Positions 7,594 to 45,945 of a stretch of DNA of 64,000 nt are shown in pieces. Each line of letters begins with the position of its first letter. The stretch's first letter is position 1. Source of the DNA: Planctomycetota bacterium (GTDB lineage Bacteria > Planctomycetota > Phycisphaerae > Phycisphaerales > SM1A02); assembly GCA_022574595.1 (NCBI GenBank), contig JACZRS010000021.1, positions 1-64,000 of the forward strand, in the 5' to 3' direction. Made by a program: the position numbers and the translations under genes. The notes beneath the pieces were generated by a model, which was given only the letters and a program-made list of their open reading frames with translations, was not told where the DNA came from and made no database searches.

Positions 7594-8430
7594 TTAGAAC
7601 TCTTTATCACGAAACTGCATTTGTGCCTGTAGTCGAGCAAGTATCGAACTGTGCATTTGGCTTACGCGCGATTCAGAAAGATCAAGCGTGATGCCGATCT
7701 CTTTCATTGTCATTTCCTCGTAGTAGTAGAGAACGACGATCAAGCGTTCAGCTCGGGATAGGCCCTTGGTTATAAGAAGCTTCAGATCGCGCCTCTGAAG
7801 TTCCGAGAGTGGATCTTCCTGTTTAGTATCCTGAATTACATCAATCTCTCGAATATCTTTGCTCGAATCGGTCTCAAACCACTTTCGATTCAGAGATACC
7901 ACACTTACAGGCTTGGAATCCTTTGAGAGCTTTTTAAACTCAGCTCCGGAAACTTCCAGGCGATCTGATAATTCCTTTTCCGTTGGTTTTCTGCCTAACT
8001 GCATCTCGAATTTCTTGCGAACACGATCAAGCTTCGCTGTTCGAGACCGAACCAGGCGCGGAACCCAGTCCATGGCGCGAAGCTCGTCGAAGATCGCACC
8101 TCGAATCCGTTGAGTGCAATATGTTTCAAACTTAACCCCACGCGATAGATCAAATGCATTGATCGCATCCATTAGTCCAAAGAGGCCTGCGGACATTAAG
8201 TCTTCAACATCCACCTCGCCCGGCAAGCGCATGTGCATTCTTTCCGCGGTGCTCTTGACAAGGTGCAGGTAATTTTCCATAAGGAAATTACGAAGCATTT
8301 CCGTTTTACCATCAGCGTACATCTGCCATACTTCTAGTATGGGCAAGTCGCCTAGAGGGGTGGGTAGTTTGGATTTTTTTGTTGTTTTACGTTTAGTAGC
8401 AGTCGCAGACTTCGTCTTCGTCTTTGGCAT
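7594..8430 (-). CDS. fliA: Flagellar sigma factor sigma-28 (FliA)
   Basis: 278 residues from ATG at 8430, preceded by GGAG at good spacing; the longer frame (8505) has no ribosome site. After a Lys/Thr-rich N-terminus come region 2 (YLHLVKSTAERMHMRLPGEVDVEDLMSAGLFGLMDAINAFDLSRG, then FETYCTQRIRGAIFDELRAMDWVPR), region 3 (RKPTEKELSDRLEVSGAEFKKL) and region 4 (EEMTMKEIGITLDLSESRVSQMHSSILARLQ). GAIFDELRxMDWVPR is diagnostic of the FliA/WhiG family. It drives late flagellar genes. It is the last gene of the flagellar operon. No FlgM is seen nearby. Confidence 0.93.
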   Translation of the reverse strand: MPKTKTKSATATKRKTTKKSKLPTPLGDLPILEVWQMYADGKTEMLRNFLMENYLHLVKSTAERMHMRLPGEVDVEDLMSAGLFGLMDAINAFDLSRGVKFETYCTQRIRGAIFDELRAMDWVPRLVRSRTAKLDRVRKKFEMQLGRKPTEKELSDRLEVSGAEFKKLSKDSKPVSVVSLNRKWFETDSSKDIREIDVIQDTKQEDPLSELQRRDLKLLITKGLSRAERLIVVLYYYEEMTMKEIGITLDLSESRVSQMHSSILARLQAQMQFRDKEF

Positions 8431-11575: not shown

Positions 11576-11642
11576 TGACTGCACTCCATTGCCTCGGCCC
11601 TAGCGTTAATCCATTAACGCAAGAATAAGTTATCACGGCATC

Positions 11643-17841: not shown

Positions 17842-17931
17842 TTCGCCAATCCTTGGCAAGTACCGCCGGATCCTCCGACGAGCGTCCGCATCCTGCAGGC
17901 GCAATTAGTTAGTTGGGCTTACGGCCCTTGA

Positions 17932-18453
17932 TTAGTCTCCAGCTTCAGCGGGCTGAATTATCTCGCTGATGCGTACACAAAAATTTTCATTAAGCACTAA
18001 AACTTCACCGCGCGCAACATGACGACCGTTTACGTACACATCAACAGGATCGCCAGCTGCTTTATCCAATTCGATTACTGAGTTCTCGTTAAGCCTGAGC
18101 ACATCCTCTACATACATGCGCGTACGACCTAGTTCAATTTTGACATTGAGATCTACATCGTGCAGCAACCCCAAACTTGAACTGATATCTTCACTATCTT
18201 CATCAGGCGCTTCAAAGTCCGGCAACTTTACAGCTTCGGTGTCGGGATCCAATTCCGCAGTTTCAGTAGCGATAGATTCGGCTGCTTGCTGCGCCTTGTC
18301 GATCGCCTCTTCAGCTGCTTCCCCAGCTGGTGTTTCAGATGAAGTTGTTTCATCTTCTACAGATGTTGGCTTCTCAGCTTCTGGTGTTTCGGATGAAGTA
18401 ATTTCATCTTCAGCAGATGTTGGTTGATCAGTTTCTGGTGTTTCGTCAGCCAT
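17932..18453 (-). CDS. fliN: Flagellar switch protein FliN with repetitive acidic N-terminus
   Basis: 173 residues. The C-terminal 80 residues are a SpoA domain ([67 protein letters not shown]), diagnostic of FliN. The N-terminal 90 residues are low-complexity Glu/Ser/Thr/Ala and include two imperfect 18-residue repeats ([17 protein letters not shown] and [14 protein letters not shown]) encoded by DNA direct repeats near 18335-18440. FliN is part of the C-ring and cargo docking. ATG is preceded by GAGAG. FliM, its usual partner, is not in the window. Confidence 0.92.
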
Positions 18454-18579
18454 CCGTGGCTCTCAAATTCAATGTATTGACTTAAAAACATACAACAGCG
18501 CATCACCAACCGATGAGCGCTTCAATACAAGTCGGTTGTTTGAGTCATCTTTCTACACAGTGAAGATGATGCGCAATAG

Positions 18580-37474: not shown

Positions 37475-38953
37475 TTATCCCAGTAGTTGTAAAACATTCT
37501 GGGACGATAAATTTGCTGTTGCAAGCACCGAAGTACCCGCTTGAGTGAGAATCTGCGCCCGAGTAAGGGCAGCAGTTTCAGCAGCAAAGTCAGCATCACG
37601 AATCACAGATTCACTGGCGGTGATATTCTCCAAGCCAACCTGCAATGCACGAATGTTTGTTTGAACGGTATTCCTCTCAAAGGCACCGAGCCTACCTCTA
37701 AGGACCGATAAGTCGGTGATGGCGCTCTTTAGAATCTCTGCTGCCTGGAAAGTTCGCCCATTAATCAATGAGTTAGCTCCACCAGATTTTACAGAGTCCA
37801 GGAAGAAGCGCGTACCACTTAAGGTTGTGCCTCCAACCCTACTAGCCGCGACTGATTGAACACCAAATCCTGCCTGCTGTGAAGCTGATATATCAGGCCC
37901 TAGCTGGAAGTTGGCGCCACCACCTGTAATTACAAATGCCTTGGCTACGCCTGTGATTTGTGAATAAGAGGCAGTCAGCTCTAATTTCAAACTTAGAGTT
38001 GGGGTGTTAAGTGTAATATCCAGACCGTTACCTACCGCCAAAGCACCATTTATGATGGCCTTGACATCCCTACCCTCATCGCGCTTAATTATGTTGCCAT
38101 CTTGCTCATCCGCTACACTGAAGAAACTGCCACCTAAGCCAATTTTGTTGACCGAAACAAATTCATCCGAACCATACCCAATAGAATTGAATGTCAATCC
38201 ACTGGTCTGGTCGCCAGCACTTACTAGTACTGCGCTAACTCCCGTAGAATCACGAAGAGTGTTCACAGCCGCTACTACTGAGCTTAAATTGGTGCCGGAC
38301 ACAAACGAAAGCGTTTGAACGCCTAGCGATCCGGCAACTTCGATGGTTACTGAGCTAAGAATCTCACCAGAGGCCCCTGTTACATTACCGGACAAGAACA
38401 AAGTAGCAGTCTGTGCAGAGCTGACTACCTCTACATTGACGTTAATGGTGGTATTGTTGCCGAATTGAGCGCTAAAGATGTCAACGCCGGCAATTGCACT
38501 TGCAGCGACACCCGAAGTCAAATACTCCATTGAGCCATTTAGAAGCTGAAGCCCTGCGAAGCTGGCAGTATTTGAAATCCGTGTGATTGATTCAATCGCA
38601 CTATCTACCTGCAATTGGTTAGCTTCAATTTCCTCTTTGCTGACAGCGCCAGTGTTGGCTGCACCTACGATCAGTGACCTGATCGAGGTAAGAAGGTCTG
38701 CAACTTCAGCTAGATATCCTTCAGTCGTTGCAATAACCAAACTAGCACGTTCAGAGTTTTTAACCGCTTGGGTTATTCCCTGTATCTCGCTGCGCAAGCG
38801 CTCTGAAACGATCAAACCAGCTGGATCATCAGCACCGCGATTGATGCGCAATCCTGTGGATAATCTGCGCAATCTCAGCGCCAGATCATCGCTGGATCTT
38901 GCTAGGTTAGTTTGTGCGATCAATGAAGAAATATTCGTGTTAATTCGAGCCAT
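37475..38953 (-). CDS. fliC: Flagellin 2
   Basis: 492 residues. Flagellin D0/D1 ends: N-terminal MARINTNISSLIAQTNLARSSDDLALRLRRLSTGLRINRGADDPAGLIVSERLRSEI, C-terminal SVIRDADFAAETAALTRAQILTQAGTSVLATANLSSQNVLQLLG, and an IN segment (LGVQTLSFVSGTNLSSVVAAVNTLRDSTGV). A paralogue of flagellin 1 with the same length and the same conserved ends but different core. ATG follows a strong AAGGAGGATTGCC which is held in the loop of a stem (see 38954-38974). Both may be co-filament subunits. Confidence 0.96.
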   Translation of the reverse strand: MARINTNISSLIAQTNLARSSDDLALRLRRLSTGLRINRGADDPAGLIVSERLRSEIQGITQAVKNSERASLVIATTEGYLAEVADLLTSIRSLIVGAANTGAVSKEEIEANQLQVDSAIESITRISNTASFAGLQLLNGSMEYLTSGVAASAIAGVDIFSAQFGNNTTINVNVEVVSSAQTATLFLSGNVTGASGEILSSVTIEVAGSLGVQTLSFVSGTNLSSVVAAVNTLRDSTGVSAVLVSAGDQTSGLTFNSIGYGSDEFVSVNKIGLGGSFFSVADEQDGNIIKRDEGRDVKAIINGALAVGNGLDITLNTPTLSLKLELTASYSQITGVAKAFVITGGGANFQLGPDISASQQAGFGVQSVAASRVGGTTLSGTRFFLDSVKSGGANSLINGRTFQAAEILKSAITDLSVLRGRLGAFERNTVQTNIRALQVGLENITASESVIRDADFAAETAALTRAQILTQAGTSVLATANLSSQNVLQLLG

Positions 38954-38974
38954 GGCAATCCTCCTTGATTGACC
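38954..38974 (-). promoter_or_regulatory. CsrA-type hairpin over the flagellin 2 ribosome site
   Basis: On the minus strand CAATC-AAGGAG-GATTG (38971-38956), extended by GG/CC, puts AAGGAG, the Shine-Dalgarno, in a six-base loop. A GGA in a hairpin loop on the ribosome site is the hallmark of CsrA translational repression. The gene for CsrA is the next one upstream (39054-39356). Confidence 0.65.
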
Positions 38975-39053
38975 TTGGTTTTCTAAATGGGCTTACGTTT
39001 GTAAACAACGTTGAAATCAGCTCGCAAAAGCGTGATATTCTCAGGCTGTATCT

Positions 39054-39356
39054 CTAGGCGCTTGCCCTTTCTTGTGAAGATCCCGGACGATTCAATTTCG
39101 CAACGGGAACAGCTATTGATACGATATTTTTTGGTTGTATTGCTTGGCGAAACGCTTCGACTTCACCTTCAACAAGGTGGGAAGCCTGTTCGTTTTCGCG
39201 CTTAATTGCGTCGTATATTTCTTTGCGATGTACGACGATATTTGGAGGGGCCTTTATACCAAGGCGTACCTTGTCACCCCTAATATCTACGACGGTCAAC
39301 TCAATGTCGTCGCCGATCATTATCGTTTCGTCGCGCTGACGTGAGAGCACCAACAC
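39054..39356 (-). CDS. csrA: Translational regulator CsrA, with C-terminal extension
   Basis: 100 residues from GTG at 39356, chosen because AAGGAG lies seven bases upstream and the product then begins [10 protein letters not shown], the CsrA start. Key RNA-binding residues Leu4, Arg6 and Arg44 (VVHRKE) are in place; beta strands [23 protein letters not shown] follow. The core is about 60 residues; the extra 40 are helical and polar and resemble the FliW-interacting extension in flagellated Gram-positives. CsrA represses flagellin translation by binding GGA hairpins; FliW relieves it. It lies 153 bp after fliW and 101 bp before flagellin 2. Confidence 0.95.
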
Positions 39357-39508
39357 GTGCAGGCTCCTTCCTGACTGTGGAACTGCAATAACTGCTATTA
39401 CAGATCCCGCCCGAGCCATCCATGACTCGAAGGTGTTCGCTCTAAACCACCACCTTTAGCACGCTATAAAGCGAACCTAGGGTGACACAGGGAAATCTTG
39501 CCCGCTCA

Positions 39509-39955
39509 CTATGCGGACACCACTTTCGCCGGTTCGCTAAGCTGAACGATTTCATGCCGGGTCGTCCATCGTTTGTCTGCCAATACAAGTTGCATGGCAT
39601 TTCGACTTACGATGTTGATCACCAGCGGACCTTGGAGATTGCCCGTTAATGTGCGATCATGTTTGTTTAGAATCACAAACACCTGCGCATTTTCGAGTTT
39701 GTCCAGGCCCAATTCGTCCATCTGCTCGCGGCGAATGGGAACTTGATAATCGCGTACCCACAAACTCGGGTCAGTTACCACGAACGCCAACTCAGGCGCA
39801 TCAATACATTGCAGCCAAAAGAAAGCTGCGTCCTCGTCCGGTTGGAGCAAGGCATACCTCGTGAAACTCGAAAACCCGAGCAAGCCGGTCGGAAATGTGA
39901 TAATGCGGTTTTCATCCACATCTACCACGCCAAAGCGGGTTGTCTCGACGTTCAT
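39509..39955 (-). CDS. fliW: Flagellar assembly factor FliW
   Basis: 148 residues: RFGVVDVDENRIITFPTGLLGFSSFTRYALLQPDEDAAFFWLQCIDAPELAFVVTDPSLWVRDYQVPI, the FliW signature ('f..GlpGF.....f.l........f..lQs.d.p.laF.v.dP......Y'). FliW binds flagellin and CsrA in turn; when flagellin is exported it frees FliW to inhibit CsrA, giving flagellin homeostasis. GGAG lies seven bases before ATG. The 129-bp region upstream contains several stem-loops (see next entry). Confidence 0.95.
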   Translation of the reverse strand: MNVETTRFGVVDVDENRIITFPTGLLGFSSFTRYALLQPDEDAAFFWLQCIDAPELAFVVTDPSLWVRDYQVPIRREQMDELGLDKLENAQVFVILNKHDRTLTGNLQGPLVINIVSRNAMQLVLADKRWTTRHEIVQLSEPAKVVSA

Positions 39956-40084
39956 TAGAACGCTCCGATTCCTGCGGCCAACCAGATGTCTGGTCTTACG
40001 CCACTCTCAACTCCAAGAGAGGCTGGACCTCCTGTCCAAGCGATGATCTGGCCGGAAGATCAACGCCCGCAATTTTGTCTGCTA
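39956..40084 (-). promoter_or_regulatory. fliW leader: tandem stem-loops with GGA in the loops
   Basis: 129 bp between flgL and fliW, on the minus strand: GATCT-TCCGGCC-AGATC (about 40061-40045), GGAC-AGGAG-GTCC (40037-40025), CTCTC-TTGGAGTT-GAGAG (40021-40004) and CCAG-ACAT-CTGG (about 39992-39981), then GGAG before ATG. Two loops contain GGA, a CsrA target. The GGACAGGAGGTCC element is repeated exactly before flgI. It could be a CsrA-bound leader, a small sponge RNA, or a folded spacer. It shows no ORF. Confidence 0.5.
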
Positions 40085-42061
40085 TTACAGAAAATCAAGC
40101 AGACTCAACGAAAACGCCCGACTCGTAGTAATAAGCCCGGCTTGTAACTGTTGCTGTAAATTAGAGAAGCGAATTGCTGCACTTGTGAAATCTAAATCTT
40201 GTACTTGGCTTCTCAATGATAAATCCTGTATCTGTAAATCTTCTTCACGGATGATTGCATCAGCCACCCGACGATTGCGGACACCGGCTTTGGCACGCGC
40301 CTCAGCCAACCGACTGATGTCATCTTCAAGTTTTCCTGTCGCAATAGTTATGCCAATCTCATCATCATTCAATAACGCATCGCGAAGGGCGATCATGTGT
40401 GAGAACAAGCTCTCAACCGCAACTGTTGCGCGATCTTCTCCCGTTAAAGTTGCGCCTGTCGTAGTTCCAAGTATTCCTAGATCGCCTGCTGCGTATGAAC
40501 CATTAAGAGCAGTAACGGTGGTATCTACCCCGGCAGTGCTGTCGGTGAATTCGATACCATTGCCATCTGCTGCCAGGGCTGCGTTAAAGTCCGCAGGAAC
40601 CGCAATCCCCGCTGCTGTGGCTGCTGCGTTTATCGCTGCAAGAACATCAGCGACCGTTAACGAGCCTACCAGATCAACATCAAAGCTAGACCCATCCTTT
40701 AGCGTCACATTAAAATCAAGATCTGCAGCTGGATCAGGTAGCCCTGTTATTGGATCCACACTACCACTTCTGATTTGAATTCCCTTGCCATGGTTGAAAT
40801 CAGATAGATCCGTCCATGTTGCTAAGGAACGAACGCCTAACTCAGTTGCGGTGCTGCCTCCACCAACTTCCGCAATGGCCATATTGCTGCCAGATAGCTC
40901 ATTTATGAAATTGAGGCGATCACCAGTGTCCGCGATCTCAACACGAACGCCAATATTTAATCCTTCAATGGCATTGATAATGCCCTGAACATTATTAACA
41001 CCTGAAAGATCAACATCACGAGTTTGCCCACCATTTATGATGCGGATTGTTCCCATAGGAACAGTGATGCCGGTCAGATTTGCCACTGCTGTAAGCTCTG
41101 TGAGCTTAGGATCTACATCTGCACCATTGATGGTAACGCCATCAAATGCCAGGTCGATACCAAGATCAGCAGCTGTACTCTGGCCTCCCGGATCAGAGAA
41201 GGTTATGGTAACTCCACCACTGGGAACGATGGAAAATGCATTACCACCTGCGCTGATAGCAACTGTTGCGCCCGCGTCTACTGTTTGAATTTCAGTTTGC
41301 AATGTGTCAATGACATCTTGCACTGAGTGAGCAGTTGATAAGTCTATTGTTATTACTGTGCCGTTAATATCTGCACTAAGAGAACCGGAAGTAATCCCCA
41401 GACCTCTTGCACCATTAAGATCAAGAAGCCGCGTATTACCAACCATAGTTGGGTCTAAGTCTAATTGTCCCTCTACGCGGGCGCTTAACGCTCCAAACGC
41501 ATCTTCACCGGACATAGTAATAGGAATTTTACCCGCTTGCCCCAAATCATTGATCATGCCCTCGCCTTGGCCGTTGTATCTAAGTCCCCCAAGCAACTCC
41601 TGTATGGGAGCTTCCGCTGTCTTATTCCCACCAAAGAAGAACAATTCCTGGAATTGACGATTACTGATCAGCACTAACTGATTCAGCATCGCGTTTATCA
41701 CTTGAGATTGATTGGCTCGAGTTTCCGCGTCACTTCCAAATCCGATTTGACTTGCGCCTACACCCTTGGCTTCTAATACTAAATCCGATGCATCTCCGAT
41801 CGATGCATCGATATTGTTAACTACCGCATCTGCATGCGAAAGATTGCGCAAACGCTGCTCATGCTGTTCTATTACATCATCAAGTACACTAATGGAACTT
41901 GTGGCAATCGGATCATCGGACGGCCTATTGACCGCTTTTCCAGATGCAAGCTGTATCTGTAATCGTAGAATATCCTGCTGAGTTCGACTAATCGAAGCCT
42001 GTAATATATTTGCGCCGAGCAGAGTCGGGATACGCGTCAAATTGGAAGGAATGCTACTCAT
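40085..42061 (-). CDS. flgL: Flagellar hook-filament junction protein FlgL (enlarged)
   Basis: 658 residues; enteric FlgL has about 317. Ends are normal: N-terminal SNLTRIPTLLGANILQASISRTQQDILRLQIQLASGKAVNRPSDDPIATSSISVLDDVI, C-terminal VQDLDFTSAAIRFSNLQQQLQAGLITTSRAFSLSLLDFL. The centre (about 190-530) holds at least three inserted segments of the flagellin IN type: 'VQDVIDTLQTEI', 'VQGIINAIEGLNIGVRVEI' and 'VADVLAAINAAATAAG'. FlgL joins hook to filament. It follows flgK with 30 bp and comes before the fliW leader. Confidence 0.93.
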   Translation of the reverse strand: MSSIPSNLTRIPTLLGANILQASISRTQQDILRLQIQLASGKAVNRPSDDPIATSSISVLDDVIEQHEQRLRNLSHADAVVNNIDASIGDASDLVLEAKGVGASQIGFGSDAETRANQSQVINAMLNQLVLISNRQFQELFFFGGNKTAEAPIQELLGGLRYNGQGEGMINDLGQAGKIPITMSGEDAFGALSARVEGQLDLDPTMVGNTRLLDLNGARGLGITSGSLSADINGTVITIDLSTAHSVQDVIDTLQTEIQTVDAGATVAISAGGNAFSIVPSGGVTITFSDPGGQSTAADLGIDLAFDGVTINGADVDPKLTELTAVANLTGITVPMGTIRIINGGQTRDVDLSGVNNVQGIINAIEGLNIGVRVEIADTGDRLNFINELSGSNMAIAEVGGGSTATELGVRSLATWTDLSDFNHGKGIQIRSGSVDPITGLPDPAADLDFNVTLKDGSSFDVDLVGSLTVADVLAAINAAATAAGIAVPADFNAALAADGNGIEFTDSTAGVDTTVTALNGSYAAGDLGILGTTTGATLTGEDRATVAVESLFSHMIALRDALLNDDEIGITIATGKLEDDISRLAEARAKAGVRNRRVADAIIREEDLQIQDLSLRSQVQDLDFTSAAIRFSNLQQQLQAGLITTSRAFSLSLLDFL

Positions 42062-45854: not shown

Positions 45855-45867
45855 GGACCTCCTGTCC
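45855..45867 (-). promoter_or_regulatory. CsrA-type hairpin over the flgI ribosome site
   Basis: GGACAGGAGGTCC folds as GGAC-AGGAG-GTCC with GGA in the loop and includes the Shine-Dalgarno; the stem ends three bases before the ATG. The same 13-mer is found in the fliW leader (40025-40037). The ACAGGA core fits CsrA selection consensus. Confidence 0.6.
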
Positions 45868-45945
45868 ATTGGCTATATCCTTGCTAGTCAATAAGCAAAT
45901 AGCGGGCCAGCACTTGCTGCGGCTCAACTGCGATACAATCATCAC

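Follow-up and report, generated by a model that had tools for sequence, protein, structure and literature searches.

A conserved pseudoknotted hairpin array upstream of fliW in the Phycisphaerales, a candidate CsrA-bound leader

Introduction

What occupies the intergenic gap ahead of fliW in a Phycisphaerales flagellar locus, and might it place synthesis of the CsrA antagonist FliW under the control of CsrA itself? The question arises in a 64-kb window (the whole stretch of DNA that we analysed), where flgI, flgN, flgK, flgL, fliW, csrA and two flagellin genes follow one another in this order on the minus strand. The flgL-fliW gap (40084-39956) measures 129 nt, from the flgL stop at 40085 to the fliW ATG at 39955. 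Downstream of it lie fliW itself (39509-39955; PF02623, E 6.4e-35) and csrA (39054-39356; PF02599, E 6.5e-24), which encodes 100 amino acids and probably starts at GTG 39356 (MLVLSR...); we prefer this start and have dropped ATG 39419, which would give the longest ORF. The CsrA encoded next to fliW keeps R44, an RNA-binding residue, as well as N55, and its closest PDB match is 5dmb_D (E 1.1e-18), the CsrA chain of the FliW-CsrA complex 5DMB.

The original prediction for this gap was an array of stem-loops, two of them exposing GGA, that would serve as a CsrA leader or a CsrA sponge and so give the FliW-CsrA pair a loop of control not described in the hag-type system. There is precedent for such sites in flagellar mRNAs, as the flagellin and flgI leaders of C. 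jejuni are proven CsrA targets in which the motif AAGGA sits in a hairpin loop (PMC4894983). The CsrA consensus obtained by SELEX is RUACARGGAUGU (PMC7652899).

Results

Four hairpins, P1 to P4, and a pseudoknot, all on the minus strand, make up a conserved RNA structure in the flgL-fliW gap. P1 (40040-40066) has a stem of 40066-40058 with 40048-40040, which contains one U-U mismatch in the window, and a loop of UUCCGGCCA; the predicted GATCT/AGATC stem is its inner portion. P2 (40025-40037) is GGAC-AGGAG-GUCC with its loop at 40033-40029, and is the primary candidate CsrA site. P3 (40000-40023; stem 40023-40015/40008-40000) corresponds to the predicted CTCTC-TTGGAGTT-GAGAG stem, which is indeed present, but comparison with relatives places the conserved pairing two bases away and makes the loop GGAGUU. 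All three stems named in the original prediction are thus found in a gap whose coordinates were exact, and the two GGA-exposing loops are those of P2 and P3. Two features go beyond it: the fourth hairpin, P4 (39981-39994; ACCAG-ACAU-CUGGU), and the pseudoknot, in which CGGCC (40054-40050) inside the P1 loop pairs with GGCCG (39979-39975) just 5' of the fliW Shine-Dalgarno sequence. The latter, GGAG at 39966-39963, is preceded by AGGA at 39973-39970, and the spacing to the ATG is conserved.

Most of the Phycisphaerales relatives that we fetched have a gap of similar length with the same order of elements. First comes P1, whose stem varies and whose loop is of the CCGGCC type; GGACAGGANGUCC makes up P2, UUGGAGUU lies within another variable stem as P3 and ACCAAGGAUUGGU makes up P4, and GGCCG, AGGA, the Shine-Dalgarno GGAG and ATG follow. 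In some members of one clade (L053, L058, L061, L064, L065) the pseudoknot helix seems to reach 8-9 pairs (CACCGACC with GGUCGGUG).

Folding of the 129-nt RNA recovered the named stems and both GGA loops, but with modest stability (z = -1.98; 6 of 200 shuffled sequences were as stable), which is too weak to rest on; the decisive evidence is covariation. The minimum free energy fold of the window sequence also contains a closing stem, GCGGGC/GGCCGC, which we rejected; it competes with the pseudoknot and, by eye, the pairing is not seen in relatives.

The original prediction had suggested related genomes as the place to look for covarying stems, and these are what we find. A first covariance model (R1), seeded with five relatives and with the window left out, gave the window 95.1 bits (E 3.5e-29) and also detected most other fliW leaders, with matches that stop at the start codon of fliW. 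With a second model (R2) the window scored 88 bits and was the sole match in its own 4.09-Mb genome at E<=1. The model match in the window spans 39953-40072. In the alignment of 34 leaders, 93.4% of cells are paired, and compensatory changes affect 9/9 pairs of P1, 3/4 of P2, 9/9 of P3 and 3/4 of P4. The covariation score for these leaders is 0.568, compared with 0.146 for shuffled and at most 0.092 for slid alignments, and for 21 matches outside the R2 seed it is 0.594 against 0.154 shuffled; the alignments were fitted to the modelled structure, which somewhat favours that structure. The pseudoknot provides an independent test, because its pairing was no part of the model: the two strands (CGGYC with GRCCG) are paired in 98% of cells and three of the five pairs change on both sides, giving combinations such as GACCG/CGGUC and GGUCG/CGACC.

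The GGA of the loops is retained to different extents. In P2 it is found in 34/34 aligned leaders while the stem varies, and sister loci swap the entire stem and keep the GGA, as in UCCGC-AGGAG-GCGGA (L033) and CCCGA-UGGAA-UCGGG (L035). The P3 loop has GGA in 23/34 leaders, and several loci of the L053-L068 clade carry P3 in the classical hexaloop form, CGCCGG-ACGGAU-CCGGCG. For P4 the count is 32/34, with AGGAN in most relatives, but in the window the GGA is lost. The window leader therefore presents two GGA loops plus the Shine-Dalgarno GGA, and many relatives have three GGA loops. One form of P2, GGACAGGAUGUCC, resembles the SELEX consensus RUACARGGAUGU (PMC7652899).

R2 matches occur in at least 78 of the 251 genomes of the order, a lower bound because scoring was confined to the best candidates from each genome; FliW is encoded in 222 of the 251. 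Of 81 matches, 77 lie at a fliW start (65 at listed fliW starts and 12 in fetched loci), and two lie between fliN and fliO in a single genus. A weak match outside flagellar loci (L093) was discarded as coding sequence. Another weak match, L106 1681-1777, contains the hairpin CGACGACAGGAUGUCGUC ahead of an ORF beginning MIGKNAALVRELASGLDRTDRLMVALRYTE. When a sample of the phylum was searched, matches were confined to members of the order, except for one weak match (G384, L094), which proved to be coding sequence. Some fliW-bearing members of the order, genus g38 for example, have no recognisable element. By eye, more diverged arrays can be seen in one of the order's other families (L110-L114, L129) and, beyond the order, in a single genome from another order of the same class (L133).

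This distribution bears on the two roles that the original prediction had left side by side. The leader half of the proposal is well supported by the conserved GGA, the covarying stems, the likeness of the loops to known CsrA hairpins and the 77/81 placement at fliW. The other half, a separate RNA of the CsrB/RsmZ type that arises directly or by processing and titrates CsrA in trans, gains something from the presence of several GGA hairpins within about 120 nt and from the C. jejuni flaA mRNA, which titrates CsrA (PMC4894983). However, we found no terminator-like site anywhere in 38900-40300, and the separate sponge is disfavoured because none lies between the array and fliW; in addition, model matches stop at the fliW start, no free-standing copy was seen, the window's own genome has its single match here, and the two GGA loops of the window may be few beside the multiple sites of RNAs of the CsrB type. 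We consider a separate sponge quite improbable. CsrA may nevertheless be titrated by the fliW mRNA itself.

If the fliW leader is a CsrA target, do other flagellar leaders carry similar sites? We defined a strict hairpin as a loop of AGGAN or ANGGAN on a stem of at least 4 pairs, a rule that agrees with the published CsrA consensus. The minus strand of the window contains 18 strict hairpins, and the plus strand 2. Ten fall in 19 flagellar leaders, compared with 0.25 in shuffled leaders (maximum 3 in 1000); there were none in 12 non-flagellar minus-strand leaders of the window and none antisense. These 10 are distributed over flgI, fliW, csrA (two), flagellin 1, fliN, fliO (three) and flhF.

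The flgI hairpin, GGAC-AGGAG-GUCC (45855-45867, minus strand), has the same stem and loop as P2, and flgI probably starts just downstream of it and not at 45869. In the one genome-wide motif count made, GGACAGGANGTCC occurred twice in the 4.09 Mb, upstream of fliW and of flgI. The csrA leader has CGAGUC-AUGGAU-GGCUCG (39412-39429, minus strand), an ANGGAN hexaloop whose stems vary in relatives, and a second hairpin, CAGG-AAGGAG-CCUG (39360-39373, minus strand), at the Shine-Dalgarno sequence. The flagellin Shine-Dalgarno sequence lies in CAAUC-AAGGAG-GAUUG (38956-38971, minus strand), which ends 2 nt ahead of the ATG. The csrA-leader and flagellin loops in this genome have six bases and the AGGAN loop has five. 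Three consecutive AGGAU pentaloop hairpins (17843-17898, minus strand) take up the gap between fliN and fliO, the last just short of the fliO ATG, and in relatives their stems vary and their loops are kept. AGCC-ACGGAU-GGCU (18448-18461, minus strand) spans the fliN start codon, and GCGUUA-AUGGAU-UAACGC (11603-11620, minus strand) lies upstream of flhF. A second GGA hairpin (GGCAUAGGAUGCC) is found upstream of the flhF hairpin, at 11655-11635 on the minus strand. Looser GGA hairpins, CUGCC-ACGGAAC-GGCAG and GGUC-AAGGAGCC-GACC, are present in the leader of a FliA-like sigma factor gene (8483-8431, minus strand), whose ATG is likely to be near 8430; they are perhaps further CsrA sites.

Since the loop rule was set after several of these sites had first been seen, relatives are the fairer test. 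There we counted 55 strict hairpins in 59 csrA leaders (0.8 shuffled), 37 in 73 flagellin leaders (0.9 shuffled), 66 in 59 fliW leaders (1.45 shuffled) and 25 in 30 fliN-fliO gaps (0.5 shuffled), and 13 of 29 flgI leaders had one (0.5 shuffled). Strict hairpins were absent from the fliW leaders sampled in other classes.

These data also speak to the idea that the gap is an intercistronic element for some other ligand, protein or metabolite, or for mRNA processing, acting independently of CsrA. P1 and the pseudoknot are conserved like the GGA hairpins yet have no CsrA motif, which is what such an element might look like. Against it, the GGA of P2 is constant as the stem changes, the same hairpins recur before csrA, flagellin, flgI and fliO, and the leader matched no relevant family in Rfam 15 at gathering or permissive thresholds; we regard a CsrA-independent role as very improbable indeed.

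Discussion

We favor the possibility that the fliW leader is a cis-acting element bound by CsrA, which would thereby control translation of its own antagonist, and from the sequence we give this reading a probability of roughly 0.72. The leader has GGA in short hairpin loops near a start codon, as is expected of a CsrA-bound mRNA leader, and csrA is present in the same genome. In our working model CsrA dimers would connect the GGAs in the loops of P2 and P3 (and of P4 where it has one) with those of the Shine-Dalgarno region, and this bridging would lower FliW translation. The pseudoknot made by the P1 loop would keep the array compact and would either position or free the strand beside the Shine-Dalgarno sequence. 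By stripping CsrA from the RNA, FliW would boost its own synthesis. CsrA as the ligand, repression over activation and the FliW feedback are what we infer; sequence alone does not give the sign of the effect. Some features sit less well with this reading: the AGGAN loop is one base shorter than the csrA-leader and flagellin loops, the window's P4 has no GGA, and the element is not recognisable in part of the order's fliW carriers.

The opposite sign, in which bound CsrA activates or stabilises fliW mRNA and the resulting negative feedback serves homeostasis, is possible if unlikely. A distance of 45-65 nt separates the main sites, P2 and P3, from the Shine-Dalgarno sequence downstream, and a possible small hairpin, P5 (39977-39965, minus strand), exclusive with the pseudoknot, would pair CCG of the pseudoknot strand with the CGG (Y-GG in general) of the fliW Shine-Dalgarno sequence, such that a held pseudoknot would free it. 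Consistent with this idea, the base preceding GGAG is C or T in 39/49 fliW leaders, compared with A in 54/57 csrA leaders. However, P5 shows weak covariation (p about 0.02 for a single pair and none for the remaining pairs), and we keep it as a weakly supported candidate; moreover, a GGA within the Shine-Dalgarno sequence is the usual layout for repression. A more elaborate scheme, which we consider doubtful, is that the leader works as a CsrA-sensing switch in which the pseudoknot and a Shine-Dalgarno-sequestering hairpin alternate to gate FliW synthesis while the RNA also titrates CsrA, making the operon a bistable flagellar checkpoint. If this were true, RNA and protein antagonism of CsrA would be joined in one transcript.

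Returning to the repressing CsrA-bound leader, the hairpin code that fliW shares with csrA, flagellin, flgI, fliO, fliN and flhF would define a single CsrA-FliW flagellar regulon, of which the fliW leader would be the most elaborate site. The arrangement resembles the Hag-FliW-CsrA system of B. subtilis in that fliW adjoins csrA and flagellin, a predicted CsrA-type hairpin covers the flagellin Shine-Dalgarno sequence (38971-38956), and CsrA has N55 and finds its closest structural match in the CsrA chain of 5DMB. It differs in having a pseudoknotted, multi-site leader on fliW and sites at csrA, flgI, fliO, fliN and flhF as well. The C. jejuni CsrA-FliW network, in which CsrA binds many flagellar 5'UTRs and FliW is the antagonist (Dugar et al. 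2016, PMC4894983), resembles the one proposed here, but no structured fliW leader is reported there (the term 'fliW mRNA' is absent) and the regulon described here is a prediction. Like the CsrB, CsrC and RsmZ sponges the leader has an array of GGA hairpin loops; unlike them it is not free-standing, has no recognised terminator, seems to offer few sites and is fixed beside fliW. TwoAYGGAY RNA (RF01731), a candidate CsrA sRNA (PMC4333381), likewise has paired hairpins with GGA loops, but the leader does not match its Rfam model, folds differently, has a pseudoknot and is linked to fliW.

The original prediction's claim of a control loop not described in the hag-type system fits the papers that we searched, none of which joins 'fliW mRNA' with CsrA. 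A search lying mostly outside subscription journals likewise turned up neither a paper on a CsrA-bound fliW leader nor an experimental CsrA study in Planctomycetota, and no title or abstract among structured-RNA surveys and the CsrA and pseudoknot literature describes such a leader. Neither CsrA-bound leaders nor the FliW-CsrA pair is novel; as far as we have seen, a conserved pseudoknotted leader with CsrA-type sites on fliW is new. With it, Planctomycetota gain a new family of structured RNA and a flagellar regulon predicted to be under CsrA, and it would offer one mechanism by which the stoichiometry of FliW to CsrA may be set.
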